Assembly: GCA_955652195.1 (NCBI GenBank)
Contig: CATPBC010000020.1
Coordinates: forward strand, 1-10,344
DNA from: an uncultured Xanthobacteraceae bacterium
Lineage (GTDB): Bacteria; Pseudomonadota; Alphaproteobacteria; Rhizobiales; Xanthobacteraceae
Direction: 5' to 3'
DNA length: 10,344 nucleotides
Below the pieces are notes generated by a model. It was not told the origin of the DNA. It did no database searches and was given only the letters and a program-made list of their open reading frames with translations. Position 1 is the first letter of the stretch. Each line of letters opens with the position of its first letter. Below are positions 2,969 to 10,344 of the stretch, in pieces. The translations under genes and the position numbers were made by a program.

Positions 2969-3045
2969 CTAGTGTGGTTTTTGGATTTGAAGTTCCTATC
3001 CGAGTTGGCCGCTTAATTGTAGGAACTTCAAATCCGCCACACTAG
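2969..3045. repeat. Palindromic repeat, copy 2
   Basis: A 16-bp perfect inverted repeat, GGATTTGAAGTTCCTA (2983-2998) against TAGGAACTTCAAATCC (3020-3035), encloses a 21-base loop. Outside it, CTAGTGTGG (2969-2977) pairs with CCACACTAG (3037-3045). A TTTTT bulge on one side faces a single G on the other. It has the same design and loop length as copy 1, with 10 of 16 inner-stem bases identical. It lies 10 bp from copy 1, between scoA and the small membrane-protein gene. Confidence 0.88.
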
Positions 3046-6106: not shown

Positions 6107-6994
6107 ATGCTTGTGAGTACAGCATTTCCGTCTCTGTCCCTAATACCAGACCGGGCTGCCGTTTTGACCCAATTGCGCGGCCTGCTGGCACGACAAGCGG
6201 GCTGGCGTGAGGACGTGAATGCGACGCTGCCTTTCGGCCTAGCGGCACTCGATTCGCATCTGCCGAATGGCGGCCTCGCCTGCGGCGCACTCCATGAGAT
6301 CGTTCCGACAACGCAAGCGGCGCTGCCGGCCGCGTTCGGTTTTGTGGTGGCTATATTGGCCCGATTATCTTCGTCTTATGGAGTCGGCTTGGCGGATAGC
6401 GAGCGCATGGATGCTCACTGTCTCCCCCATGGTTTCCCAAATGGTCCCCCATATGGGACCGAGCGGCGAATCGTTTTTGTCATGCCGGCCCATGCCCTGC
6501 GCCAATGCGGCCGCCTGTCCGGACATGGCCTCAAGAGTCTAGGTCTCAATCCGCGCCGCGCGATCCTGATCGAGACGGCGCATTGGCAAGACTCGCTATG
6601 GGCCCTGGTGGAAGCGCTGCGCTCGCAAGCGCCGCAAGCCGCCGCCGGAATGATCGATAGGATCGATCTGAAGACCAGCCAGAAACTGCATCTCGCCGCC
6701 GTCGATGCCGGCTTGCCGTTGTTGCTGCTGCGTCCTTCGCAAACGCTGGAATCAAGCGCCGCGGCAACGCGCTGGCGGATCGATGCGGCGGCCGGCGCGC
6801 GCGACCGTTTCGGCAGTTACGCGCGCGCGCGATGGCAAGTGCAGCTTGAACGCTGCCGCAATGGACGGTCGGGTGAATGGGTAGTGGAGTACGATCATGT
6901 CGCGCATCGTTTCAGTCTGGTTGCCGCGCTGGCCGATCTATCGCTTTCTCGCGGTGCAGGCGATCAGTCCCGTCGGCAAGCCAATCGATCCTGA
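6107..6994 (+). CDS. imuA: ImuA, RecA/SulA-like SOS mutagenesis protein
   Basis: This 295-residue protein is the first subunit of the ImuA-ImuB-DnaE2 mutasome, which makes translesion mutations after DNA damage. Family features are the RecA-like start of the core (LPFGLAALDSHLPNGGLACGALHEI, 41-65), the block GHGLKSLGLNPRRAILIETA (139-158), DSLWALVEALRS, and the tail TRWRIDAAAG, WQVQLERCRNGRSGEW. The P-loop position lacks a classic Walker A, as is usual for ImuA. The ATG at 6107 follows GGGAAGGA (6093-6100) with a 6-base spacer. Residues about 88-119 (SSYGVGLADSERMDAHC, then LPHGFPNGPPYGTE) seem longer than the usual linker. The last 32 codons overlap imuB in another frame. Expression should be LexA-controlled. 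Confidence 0.9.
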   Translation: MLVSTAFPSLSLIPDRAAVLTQLRGLLARQAGWREDVNATLPFGLAALDSHLPNGGLACGALHEIVPTTQAALPAAFGFVVAILARLSSSYGVGLADSERMDAHCLPHGFPNGPPYGTERRIVFVMPAHALRQCGRLSGHGLKSLGLNPRRAILIETAHWQDSLWALVEALRSQAPQAAAGMIDRIDLKTSQKLHLAAVDAGLPLLLLRPSQTLESSAAATRWRIDAAAGARDRFGSYARARWQVQLERCRNGRSGEWVVEYDHVAHRFSLVAALADLSLSRGAGDQSRRQANRS

Positions 6995-8552
6995 GCGGCC
7001 GCTCGTCCTTGCCATTGCCGCAACCGGAGGTCCGCGCATCGCCGCCATGAATGAGGCGGCGGAGAATGTCGGAATTGCGATTGGCGATCCGGTGGCCGAT
7101 GCGCGCGCCAAAGCGGATAGTCTGCAAGTGCGCGCCGCCGACAGCGGCGCCGATGATGCCGCGCTGCGCCGCCTTACTTTATGGGCGACACGCTACACCC
7201 CAACCGCCTCGCCGTGGTGCAGGGAACCTTGGAGCGAGGAAAATGGCGCCGACGGTTTTTTCCTCGACATCGAAGGTGCCGCGCATCTGTTCGGCGGCGA
7301 GGAAAGCCTCCTCGCCGATCTTGCCGGCCGGCTTAATCGCTTCGGATTGCTAGCACGGCTTGCTATCGCCGCTACCCCCGGCATGGCCTGGGCCTTGTCA
7401 CACTTTAATGCCGCACCCCAATCCATCCTGCCCTCGGGCAACGAAGCCGCTGCGATCGCTGCAATGCCGATCAAAGCCTTGCGGCTCTCGGGCGAAAGCC
7501 GCGCAGTGCTGCGCCGGCTCGGCTTCAAATCCGTGGGTACGTTGATGGATAAGCCGCGTGCACCTTTGGCGGCACGCTTTTCCGACGAACTACTGCGGCG
7601 GCTCGATCAAGCGCTCGGCCGTATCGACGAACCACTCATTCCGGTGACGGCGCCGCCGGTCTATCACAGCCTGAATTATTTGCTCGAACCGATCATCAGC
7701 CAGCAGGCAATCGTCGCTCGCGCCTGCCGTTTAATGCAAAACCTGGTGCATGTGCTCGTGCGCGATCAGGTCGGAGCGCGCGCGCTGAGATTAAGCCTTT
7801 ATGGGCTCGATGGCGCAGTCGAGACGATCGATATCGGACTGACCGCGCCGACGCGCAGTGTGGCGCATGTGGCGCGGCTGATCGATCTCAAGCTCGATAC
7901 GCTGGCGGCAATGCAGGATGCCGGCTTTGGCTTCGAGGCAATCGGCCTTGCCGTCACGCGCGTCGCGCCGATGCCGGCGCGGCAGATTGACTCAAATATC
8001 GATCGTCACCTTCAGCTGCGAGCGACAGCTGAGAATGACGATGACATTGCGGCTTTGATAGACGCGCTGCGGCAGCGGCTCGGTTCCAATCGTGTGCGGC
8101 AGTTCGAAGCCGTCCCCAGCCATATTCCCGAACGCGCGGAAAAGCTGACTGAGGTCAATGGCAAAACATTTCAATCCGCCCCTCCCCGTTCAGAAGACAG
8201 CTACTGGCTGCTTGCGGACGACAAAACGCGTCCGCTGTTACTTTTGCCGCAAGCCGAACCGGCCGAAGTCACCGCGCTCGTCCCCGAAGGTCCGCCGCGG
8301 CGTTTGCGCTGGCGCGGGGTGACTTACGACATCACCGGCGCGCAAGGTCCGGAACGGATCGCCGAGGAGTGGTGGCGCAATCCCTCACCCTACCCTCCTC
8401 CGCAAGCGGGGGAGGGAAAGGAAGGGAGCCTTACCCGCGATTACTATTTCGTCGAGGACGGCGAAGGCCATCGCTTCTGGCTCTACCGTGAAGGCCTTTA
8501 CGGCCGCGAAACCGCGGCGGCGCGCTGGTTCGTGCATGGCTTGTTTGCTTGA
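6897..8552 (+). CDS. imuB: ImuB, Y-family polymerase-like mutasome hub, with in-frame repeat insert
   Basis: This 551-residue protein has the Y-family polymerase fold but is expected to be inactive. It acts as the adaptor linking ImuA, DnaE2 and the sliding clamp. The N-terminus VSVWLPRWPIYRFL replaces the metal-binding DMDAF motif of true Y-family enzymes. GFFLDIEGAAHLFGGEE marks the second palm region, also without the canonical SIDE acid pair. The helix-hairpin-helix part (ALRLSGESRAVLRRLGFKSVGTL), the little finger, and the ImuB-specific C-terminal domain (HIPERAEKL, VPEGPPRRLRWRG, GPERIAEEWW, RDYYFVEDGEGHRFWLYREGLYG) follow in order. Residues about 495-512 (NPSPYPPPQAGEGKEGSL) come from a palindromic repeat inside the gene. 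The ATG at 6897 has GGAG (6886-6889) and overlaps imuA by 98 bp. Confidence 0.93.
   Translation: MSRIVSVWLPRWPIYRFLAVQAISPVGKPIDPERPLVLAIAATGGPRIAAMNEAAENVGIAIGDPVADARAKADSLQVRAADSGADDAALRRLTLWATRYTPTASPWCREPWSEENGADGFFLDIEGAAHLFGGEESLLADLAGRLNRFGLLARLAIAATPGMAWALSHFNAAPQSILPSGNEAAAIAAMPIKALRLSGESRAVLRRLGFKSVGTLMDKPRAPLAARFSDELLRRLDQALGRIDEPLIPVTAPPVYHSLNYLLEPIISQQAIVARACRLMQNLVHVLVRDQVGARALRLSLYGLDGAVETIDIGLTAPTRSVAHVARLIDLKLDTLAAMQDAGFGFEAIGLAVTRVAPMPARQIDSNIDRHLQLRATAENDDDIAALIDALRQRLGSNRVRQFEAVPSHIPERAEKLTEVNGKTFQSAPPRSEDSYWLLADDKTRPLLLLPQAEPAEVTALVPEGPPRRLRWRGVTYDITGAQGPERIAEEWWRNPSPYPPPQAGEGKEGSLTRDYYFVEDGEGHRFWLYREGLYGRETAAARWFVHGLFA
8382..8428. repeat. GC-rich palindromic repeat inserted in frame in imuB
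   Basis: CCCTCCTCCGC (8393-8403) pairs with GCGGGGGAGGG (8406-8416), with one mismatch that is a G-U pair in RNA, around a tight CAAG turn. Flanks (CCCTCACCCTA before, AAAGGAAGGGA after) match the wider layout of a repeat that, to my knowledge, is common between genes in Hyphomicrobiales. Here it is read as coding sequence between the conserved EEWWR and TRDYY blocks. Confidence 0.75.
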
Positions 8553-8592: not shown

Positions 8593-10344
8593 ATGAGCGC
8601 GTATGCCGAGCTCGCTGTAACAACTAATTTTTCCTTCCTTCGCGGCGCCTCGCATCCGCAGGAAATGGTGGCCCGCGCCGATGATCTCGGACTGACCGCT
8701 ATCGGCATCGCCGACCGCAATTCTTTTGCCGGCGTGGTCCGCGCCTATGACGAAGCGAAAAAGCGAAAAATAAAACTCTTAATCGGCACGCGCCTGGTGA
8801 CCAGCGATGGCTTCGAAGTGCTGGCCTACCCAACCGATCGCACCGCCTATGGCCGGCTCTGCCGCCTGATCACCGCCGGCAATCTCAAAGCAAAGAAAAG
8901 CGAATGCCATCTGAGTTTCGCGGAGATTCTTAATGCCACCGAAGGTCAGATTTTTATCGTGCTGCCGCCAGCAGAGCTGACTTATGGAAGTGATTCAATT
9001 TCCGCTCATCCCCGCGAAAGCATTCTAGAAAAAATAACCTCCCCCTGGAGGGGGGAGGTCGACGCGCGCAGCGCGGCGGGTGGGGGTGATGCGACGGCGC
9101 CGCTGGTCACCCCACCCCGGCCGCTTCGCGGCCGACCCTCCCCCTCCAGGGGAGGTTTTGGAGTCTTCACCACCCGCCTTATCGCCTTAGTCCGCGCGGC
9201 GCCGGGACGCACATTCCTTGCCGGCGTGCATTATCATCGCGGCGACGAGTCGCGCCGGCTCGGTCTGTTGGCCGAACTCGGCGCCCGATGTGGCGCGCCG
9301 CTCGTTGCGGTCAATGACGTGCTCTATCACACGCCGGAGCGCCGGCCGCTCGTCGACGTGCTCACCTGCATCCGGAAGAAATGCACCATCGCCGCAGCCG
9401 GCTTGCGGCTGTCGGTCAATGCCGAGCGGCATCTCAAAGCGCCGGCGGAAATGGCGCGGCTGTTCGCCGCCTTTCCCGACGCCATTGCCCGCACTCTCGC
9501 CATCGCTCAATCCTGCCGTTTCTCGCTTAGCGAACTCAAATACGAATATCCCGACGAGCCGGTGCCGCCGGGCAAGACCGCCCAGCAGCATCTGGAGGAT
9601 CTTACCTGGGTGGGAGCGCAGGAGCGCTACCCGAAAGACAAATATCCCAACGGCATTCCCGACGATGTTCGGAAGCGGCTTAACGACGAACTCGCGCTCA
9701 TCGGCAAACTCGATTATGCGCGCTACTTCCTCACCGTACATGACGTGGTTTCCTTCGCGCGAACCCAGGACAAGGAAATCCTCTGCCAAGGCCGCGGCTC
9801 GGCGGCCAATAGCGCGGTCTGCTTTTGTCTCGGCATCACTTCGGTCAATCCGGACAAGAGCAATCTCTTGTTCGCCCGGTTCATTTCCGAAAATCGCAGC
9901 GAGCCGCCCGATATCGATGTCGATGTCGAACATGAGCGGCGCGAAGAGGTCATTCAATACATTTACCGGCGCTACGGCCGCCATCGCGCGGCGATCTGCG
10001 CCACAGTCGTGCATTACCGCTCCCGCGGCGCCATCCGCGAGGTCGGCAAAGCCTTAGGCTTGACCGAAGACGTGACCGCCGCGCTGGCTAAGACGGTGTG
10101 GGGTTATGGCGATGGCTATCCCGACGATCACATCCGCCAAGCCGGCCTCGATCCATCAAATCCGACGATCCGGCAGGCCGCTGCGCTCGCCGACGAACTG
10201 ATCGGTTTTCCGCGCCATCTCTCGCAGCATGTCGGCGGCTTCGTACTCACGCGCGCGCCGCTCGATGAGACGGTCCCGATCGGCAATGCCGCCAACGACG
10301 ATCGCAACATCAACGAATGGGACAAAGACGAGATCGACACGCTG
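8593..10344 (+). CDS. dnaE2: DnaE2 error-prone DNA polymerase III alpha subunit (N-terminal 584 codons, runs off right edge)
   Basis: The error-prone C-family replicase of the SOS mutasome, working with ImuA and ImuB, is open to the window end. The PHP domain comes first ([34 protein letters not shown]). The polymerase core follows with [18 protein letters not shown] and [20 protein letters not shown]. Asp440 and Asp442 there match two of the three catalytic aspartates of C-family polymerases. [11 protein letters not shown] lies near the edge. The ATG at 8593 directly follows a TAA in the same frame, so it is the earliest start; only a weak GUGAGA precedes it. It starts 40 bp after imuB. Residues about 148-189 ([18 protein letters not shown], then [19 protein letters not shown]) come from a palindromic repeat in the gene. 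The frame is intact across it. Confidence 0.94.
9036..9157. repeat. Long palindromic repeat inserted in frame in dnaE2
   Basis: The outer arms are 9036-9058 (AACCTCCCCCTGGAGG...) and 9137-9157 (CCTCCCCCTCCAGGGGAGGT...). They are reverse complements apart from one base in a C run and one in a G run. Inner arms GGGTGGGGGTGA (9078-9089) and TCACCCCACCCC (9107-9118) pair almost fully around a short GC-rich tip. Side hairpins lie between them, the clearest being GGCCGCTTCGCGGCC (9119-9133). The 122-bp unit contains no stop in the dnaE2 frame. Its layout matches repeats I know from intergenic regions of Hyphomicrobiales. Confidence 0.85.

Follow-up and report, generated by a model that had tools for sequence, protein, structure and literature searches.

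Short palindromic repeats inside bacterial coding genes have been described before. According to the accessible text of Di Nocera et al. 2013 (PMC3733652), intragenic GTAG/CGTC REPs are short palindromic sequences, often dimers, and many of them lie in genes for replication and repair (DnaE2, uvrA, UvrD/REP helicase and DNA ligase among them), with pseudouridine synthases and RNA helicases as further hosts. The same text suggests mutator effects of REPs in repair genes, and states that repeats in one functional gene class occupy different sites, recB excepted. As this work already places palindromic repeats in repair genes including DnaE2, the general phenomenon is published. Delihas 2007 (PMC2759123), in the portion available, deals with intragenic mobile repeats (RU/ERIC) of enterobacteria and refers to the Rickettsia studies.

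We analyzed a window of 10,344 nucleotides (contig CATPBC010000020.1 of an uncultured Xanthobacteraceae bacterium) that carries a palindrome within dnaE2, referred to here as family A (families A, B and C are labels of this analysis). Family A resembles the GTAG/CGTC REPs, as far as the accessible text describes them, in being a palindrome found inside coding genes, repair genes, pseudouridine synthases and RNA helicases. Judged by eye from the description in PMC3733652, family B matches a CGTC repeat dimer, and a GTAG or CGTC end is not evident in family A. Unlike the rule of differing sites given in that text, unrelated families here reuse one DnaE2 loop. In the literature searched, in which subscription journals are thinly covered, we found neither such reuse of one DnaE2 loop nor a precedent nearer than PMC3733652.

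Family A also behaves much like the Rickettsia palindromic elements, which the available parts of PMC2635572 and PMC2759123 describe as neutral-looking insertions that keep the frame of conserved proteins and are missing from relatives. Its palindromic unit is present in several copies per genome, both within and between genes, and lies in frame within conserved proteins while missing from orthologues, as in protein-coding (RPE-like) repeats; the resemblance to Rickettsia elements proposed in the initial annotation is thereby supported, in that the palindromic insert is in frame, is absent from some relatives and has copies in and outside genes. Unlike the Rickettsia elements, family A occurs in a different alphaproteobacterial order and is GC-rich, and the likeness is one of behavior. 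It shares one property with REPINs (two inverted REP-like units), and with RU/ERIC the MITE-like character, the open frames and the location inside genes; RU/ERIC are other repeats in other hosts, and the available text of PMC2759123 never uses the term 'DNA repair'.

A palindromic insert in the PHP-domain linker of DnaE2

The ORF at 8593-10344 matches the error-prone polymerase profile NF004225 (E = 8.8e-193) and contains the PHP and DNA_pol3_alpha domains. The features of this region are as follows.

8593..10344, + strand: 5' part of dnaE2 (error-prone DNA polymerase), from its ATG start, open at the window end; assigned by profile matches
8950..9195, + strand: variable PHP-domain linker, about residues 120-201; from linker comparison and predicted structure
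9000..9021, + strand: family-B remnant, unrelated to A, a further insertion within this linker (21/22 bases as in G007)
9036..9157, + strand: family-A palindromic element, 122 bp, residues 148-189 of DnaE2
9037..9059, + strand: left outer hairpin, by sequence reading
9060..9078, + strand: left inner hairpin, by sequence reading and a survey of inner-hairpin pairing
9118..9134, + strand: right inner hairpin, by sequence reading and the same survey
9135..9156, + strand: right outer hairpin, by sequence reading

No stop codon interrupts 9036-9157 in the dnaE2 frame, the arms (9042-9061 and 9133-9152) are 90% complementary, and the RNA fold of the element reaches -92.3 kcal/mol (z = -5.84; none of 200 shuffles equals it), bearing out the original description of a 122-bp palindrome that is stop-free in this frame. 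Two inverted REP-like units make up the element, and both contain an outer as well as an inner hairpin. Open frames number four of six in the element and four to six in 460 of 500 dinucleotide shuffles; a 'coding-ready' design was rejected, since composition alone yields such open frames and the stop-free state of the element is therefore not special. Rfam gave five sub-threshold hits in the window and none at the element.

The linker is bounded by a predicted strand (residues 119-124) and a predicted helix (189-202), and is 82 residues long in the window DnaE2 vs 23 in G011. About 42 added residues had been claimed; residues 148-189 do correspond to these, but the extra material is larger and also includes the family-B remnant, whose presence beside A indicates more than one insertion event in this linker. 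The insert has pLDDT values below 50 within a confidently predicted PHP domain, and the family-A segment is thus predicted to form a disordered loop of that domain. Ligand positions of the PHP domain are altered in the window DnaE2 according to an alignment to Taq Pol III alpha, the positions compared being those that we take to be ligands of the PHP nuclease metal site.

One DnaE2 loop and three unrelated repeat families

The linker could be read in 15 same-genus DnaE2 proteins, including that of the window genome (G000), and these form the comparison; G013 (part of the gene is missing) and G002, G003, G005 and G015 (linker not obtained) are left out of the count. Family A is found in 5 of the 15 linkers (G000, G009, G010, G017 and G018), family B in two (G007 and G012) and family C in two (G006 and G008), and all three are absent in six (G001, G004, G011, G014, G016 and G019), some of which have short GC-rich stretches. 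The alignment that the initial annotation had called for reveals no conserved segment shared at residues 148-189. The 122-bp unit in dnaE2 is an insertion, absent from some relatives and with unrelated repeats in others.

The AU test rejects a single origin for the two C insertions (p = 0.0019). Within the genus, a single origin is not rejected for A (AU p = 0.20) or B (AU p = 0.10), so part of the presence/absence pattern may reflect inheritance. Unrelated repeat families have entered one DnaE2 loop in relatives, and family C did so at least twice. Beyond the genus, other repeat-like peptides were seen by eye at this place in the DnaE2 proteins of L051, L052, L096, L097, L101 and L111. The equivalent loop of the paralogue DnaE1 holds an insert in 0 of 14 same-genus proteins vs 9 of 15 for DnaE2 (p = 0.0005, uncorrected for relatedness). 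One genus thus offers a single DnaE2 loop that either stands empty or contains any of three unrelated palindromes, with DnaE1 clean at that place, and this natural series of filled and empty loops makes the neutrality of in-frame selfish repeats directly testable.

We note that in the dnaE2 of G013 (L045, G013:C169) approximately residue 48 joins approximately residue 209 in frame, through a PHP-region deletion or an assembly collapse.

Family A across genomes and its host genes

Family A was matched in 43 of the 61 genomes searched (own genome included) and in all 20 genomes of the genus; half units were also found alone. The window genome, a draft of 511 contigs that is 85% complete, has three other partial family-A places, so the proposed search for further copies succeeded in its own as well as in other genomes. 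All genomes are drafts, and gene calls combine a codon model with profile matches, several of which fall below the curated cut-off because the genes are cut by the edges of the analyzed stretch.

The surveyed copies are the top-ranked matches, and the counts cover best matches rather than every copy. In the first survey (six genomes; 90 places, 6 dropped near contig ends), 23 of 84 classifiable best-match places of family A are in frame inside a coding gene according to the codon model, and a 24th in-frame copy, in ligD, was identified later; applied to 200 random positions, the rule places 103 within genes. Two of the 23 copies are those of dnaE2, and L184, L223, L260 and L262 were named by place or by having flanks in common with profile-scanned copies. 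Hosts include the repair genes dnaE2, imuA, an imuB-like gene, mfd, uvrA, uvrC, a PHP-UvrD helicase and ligD, and also nrdJ, rluA, hydantoinase A/B, hrpB, tilS and a ubiH-like gene. Among best matches, with dnaE2 copies excluded, only 1 of 40 B copies (in imuB) and 2 of 39 C copies (in a hydantoinase and a histidine kinase) are in frame, vs 23 of 84 for A, and tolerance alone therefore does not explain the in-frame copies of A.

Hydantoinase A/B-type genes (L199, L224, L243, L303, L371 and L380) are a recurrent host of A and C inserts, and one of them (L224) contains two A copies. In uvrA of G010, G018, G016 and G034 (the last from another genus), an A insert is found at approximately the same place (L230, L260, L012 and L384, respectively); given this position across genera, it may be an old, inherited insertion.

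No consistent Y1 transposase partner was found for family A in the genomes scanned with PF01797 (Y1/RAYT) and at 30 Y1 loci. PF01797 has no match in G000 (85% complete) or in G004 (20 element matches), matches are present in G009, G010, G017 and G018, and only 1 of the 30 Y1 loci has a nearby A match (39 bases, E = 7.6e-6).

DNA-repair genes as hosts

With both sets of in-frame A copies taken together and dnaE2 excluded, 7 of 19 host genes are repair genes vs 1 of 37 random genes (p = 0.0014, or 0.0045 with the PHP-UvrD helicase left out of the repair class). The random-gene control is small (39 selected, 37 scanned, 6 of the 37 without a family match), and its lone repair gene is an Lhr-like helicase. 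The repair bias was first seen post hoc in the first survey; the replicate alone was planned. The latter comprises 14 planned genomes and single best copies from nine more (G003, G006, G007, G025, G027, G032, G033, G035 and G055), and its 77 places, after removing 7 duplicates and 5 edge places, left 65 to be classified. Among these best matches 13 are in frame, all in the 14 planned genomes: the repair hosts are mfd, uvrA (two genomes) and imuB, and the others are rluA, hydantoinase (two), acyl-CoA ligase, peptide permease, thiC, glyS, an ABC ATPase and one unmatched gene (the names of L021, L371 and L380 come from their similarity to scanned genes; L363, unmatched, was counted as non-repair). 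The repair share of the replicate is 3 of 11 genes (p = 0.033) or 4 of 13 copies (p = 0.013), which is weaker than in the first set, and its three repair genes had all appeared there.

For 19 A copies that are not in frame, none of the nearest genes is a repair gene (16 of the 19 nearest genes could be named). Repair loci are thus not hit more often outside coding sequence, which favors tolerance over targeting, on small numbers. Together, the random-gene and flank controls back the remark in the accessible text of PMC3733652 on the unusual frequency of such repeats in genes for DNA repair.

Sequence constraint and selection

Outside the insert, pN/pS of dnaE2 is 0.252 in 36 insert-bearing pairs, 0.274 in 54 mixed pairs and 0.292 in 15 insert-free pairs: purifying selection persists on the rest of the gene, with similar substitution ratios with and without inserts. 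The dnaE2 A element is identical over 119 bases among G009, G010 and G018, vs flanks with 93-95% (left) and 89-96% (right) identity, which hints at constraint or recent spread and counts against plain neutrality. Slow evolution as a general rule for inserts was rejected based on other orthologous inserts of G010 and G018, whose elements are 93-97% and flanks 91-96% identical.

Among 280 pattern-caught units in the examined loci (overlapping loci repeat some), the inner hairpins have 95 distinct sequences, with a mean longest stem of 6.2 vs 3.4 when shuffled. Inner stems are kept despite the varying sequence, so family A is shaped by nucleic-acid structure and not by the peptide. The element had been called domesticated, a term that is not supported, given the predicted disorder, the unrelated or missing repeats in relatives and the similar substitution ratios.

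Explanations for the insert

We consider it likely, with good confidence, that a tolerated DnaE2 loop collects mobile palindromes, much like the Rickettsia palindromic elements, and that the insert is neutral or nearly so. A dispersed, probably non-autonomous family-A repeat has inserted into the dnaE2 loop between strand 119-124 and helix 189-202, and the loop may tolerate it because the PHP domain lacks some nuclease metal-site residues and the segment protrudes as predicted disorder. The insert would be selfish DNA, able to persist inside a gene only when it is stop-free and keeps the frame. Repair and SOS proteins may hold more inserts because they are long, modular and seldom needed, so that purifying selection removes fewer of them.

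The excess of repair genes among in-frame hosts (7 of 19 vs 1 of 37) and the inserts in imuA, imuB and dnaE2 alike would also fit elements that are mobile chiefly when DNA is damaged and enter the genes highly transcribed under those conditions (SOS, repair). We regard this as improbable, as repair genes are never nearest to the 19 copies examined outside reading frames, and the DnaE2 and ImuB linkers host unrelated families, which points to a site in common rather than one family's preference. An extended version, in which the DnaE2 loop and the ImuA/ImuB linkers would be insertion hotspots through SOS-coupled palindrome movement, with mutasome genes recording bursts of mobility and inserts modulating the mutasome, seems to us unlikely as well. 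We consider it quite improbable that selection has kept the insert for an effect on DnaE2 or the mutation rate, exerted by the insert itself or by its mRNA hairpin: Di Nocera et al. (PMC3733652, accessible text) suggested selection for repeats in repair genes generally, and the 119 unchanged bases in three genomes agree with it, as does the kept inner-hairpin pairing, although the latter is true of family A everywhere and not of dnaE2 specifically; against it, the insert is predicted to be disordered, relatives have an unrelated insert or none, pN/pS is alike with and without it, and inserts show no general slow-down. The fragmented, incomplete assembly (511 contigs, 85% complete) could in principle have produced an assembly or binning artefact; this is extremely unlikely, because the suspected frame break did not materialize (the frame is open throughout), dnaE2 in the assemblies of G009, G010, G017 and G018 carries the element too, and the gene is under purifying selection.

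The imuB linker and other window features

A second repeat-like insert is found in the same gene cluster, within the ORF at 6897-8552.

8393..8416, + strand: hairpin in the imuB C-terminal linker

Ten same-genus ImuB C-terminal linkers were judged by eye. Family B is found in G004, G007, G009 and G011, decayed B in G006 and G012, and none in G001, G013 and G014; the hairpin of the window differs from family B. By this inspection, the ImuB C-terminal linker appears to behave like the DnaE2 loop in same-genus proteins.

Elsewhere in the window, two perfect 16-base inverted repeats with 21-base spacers (2892-2944 and 2983-3035) lie near each other, upstream of an apparent CoA-transferase gene (named by eye).
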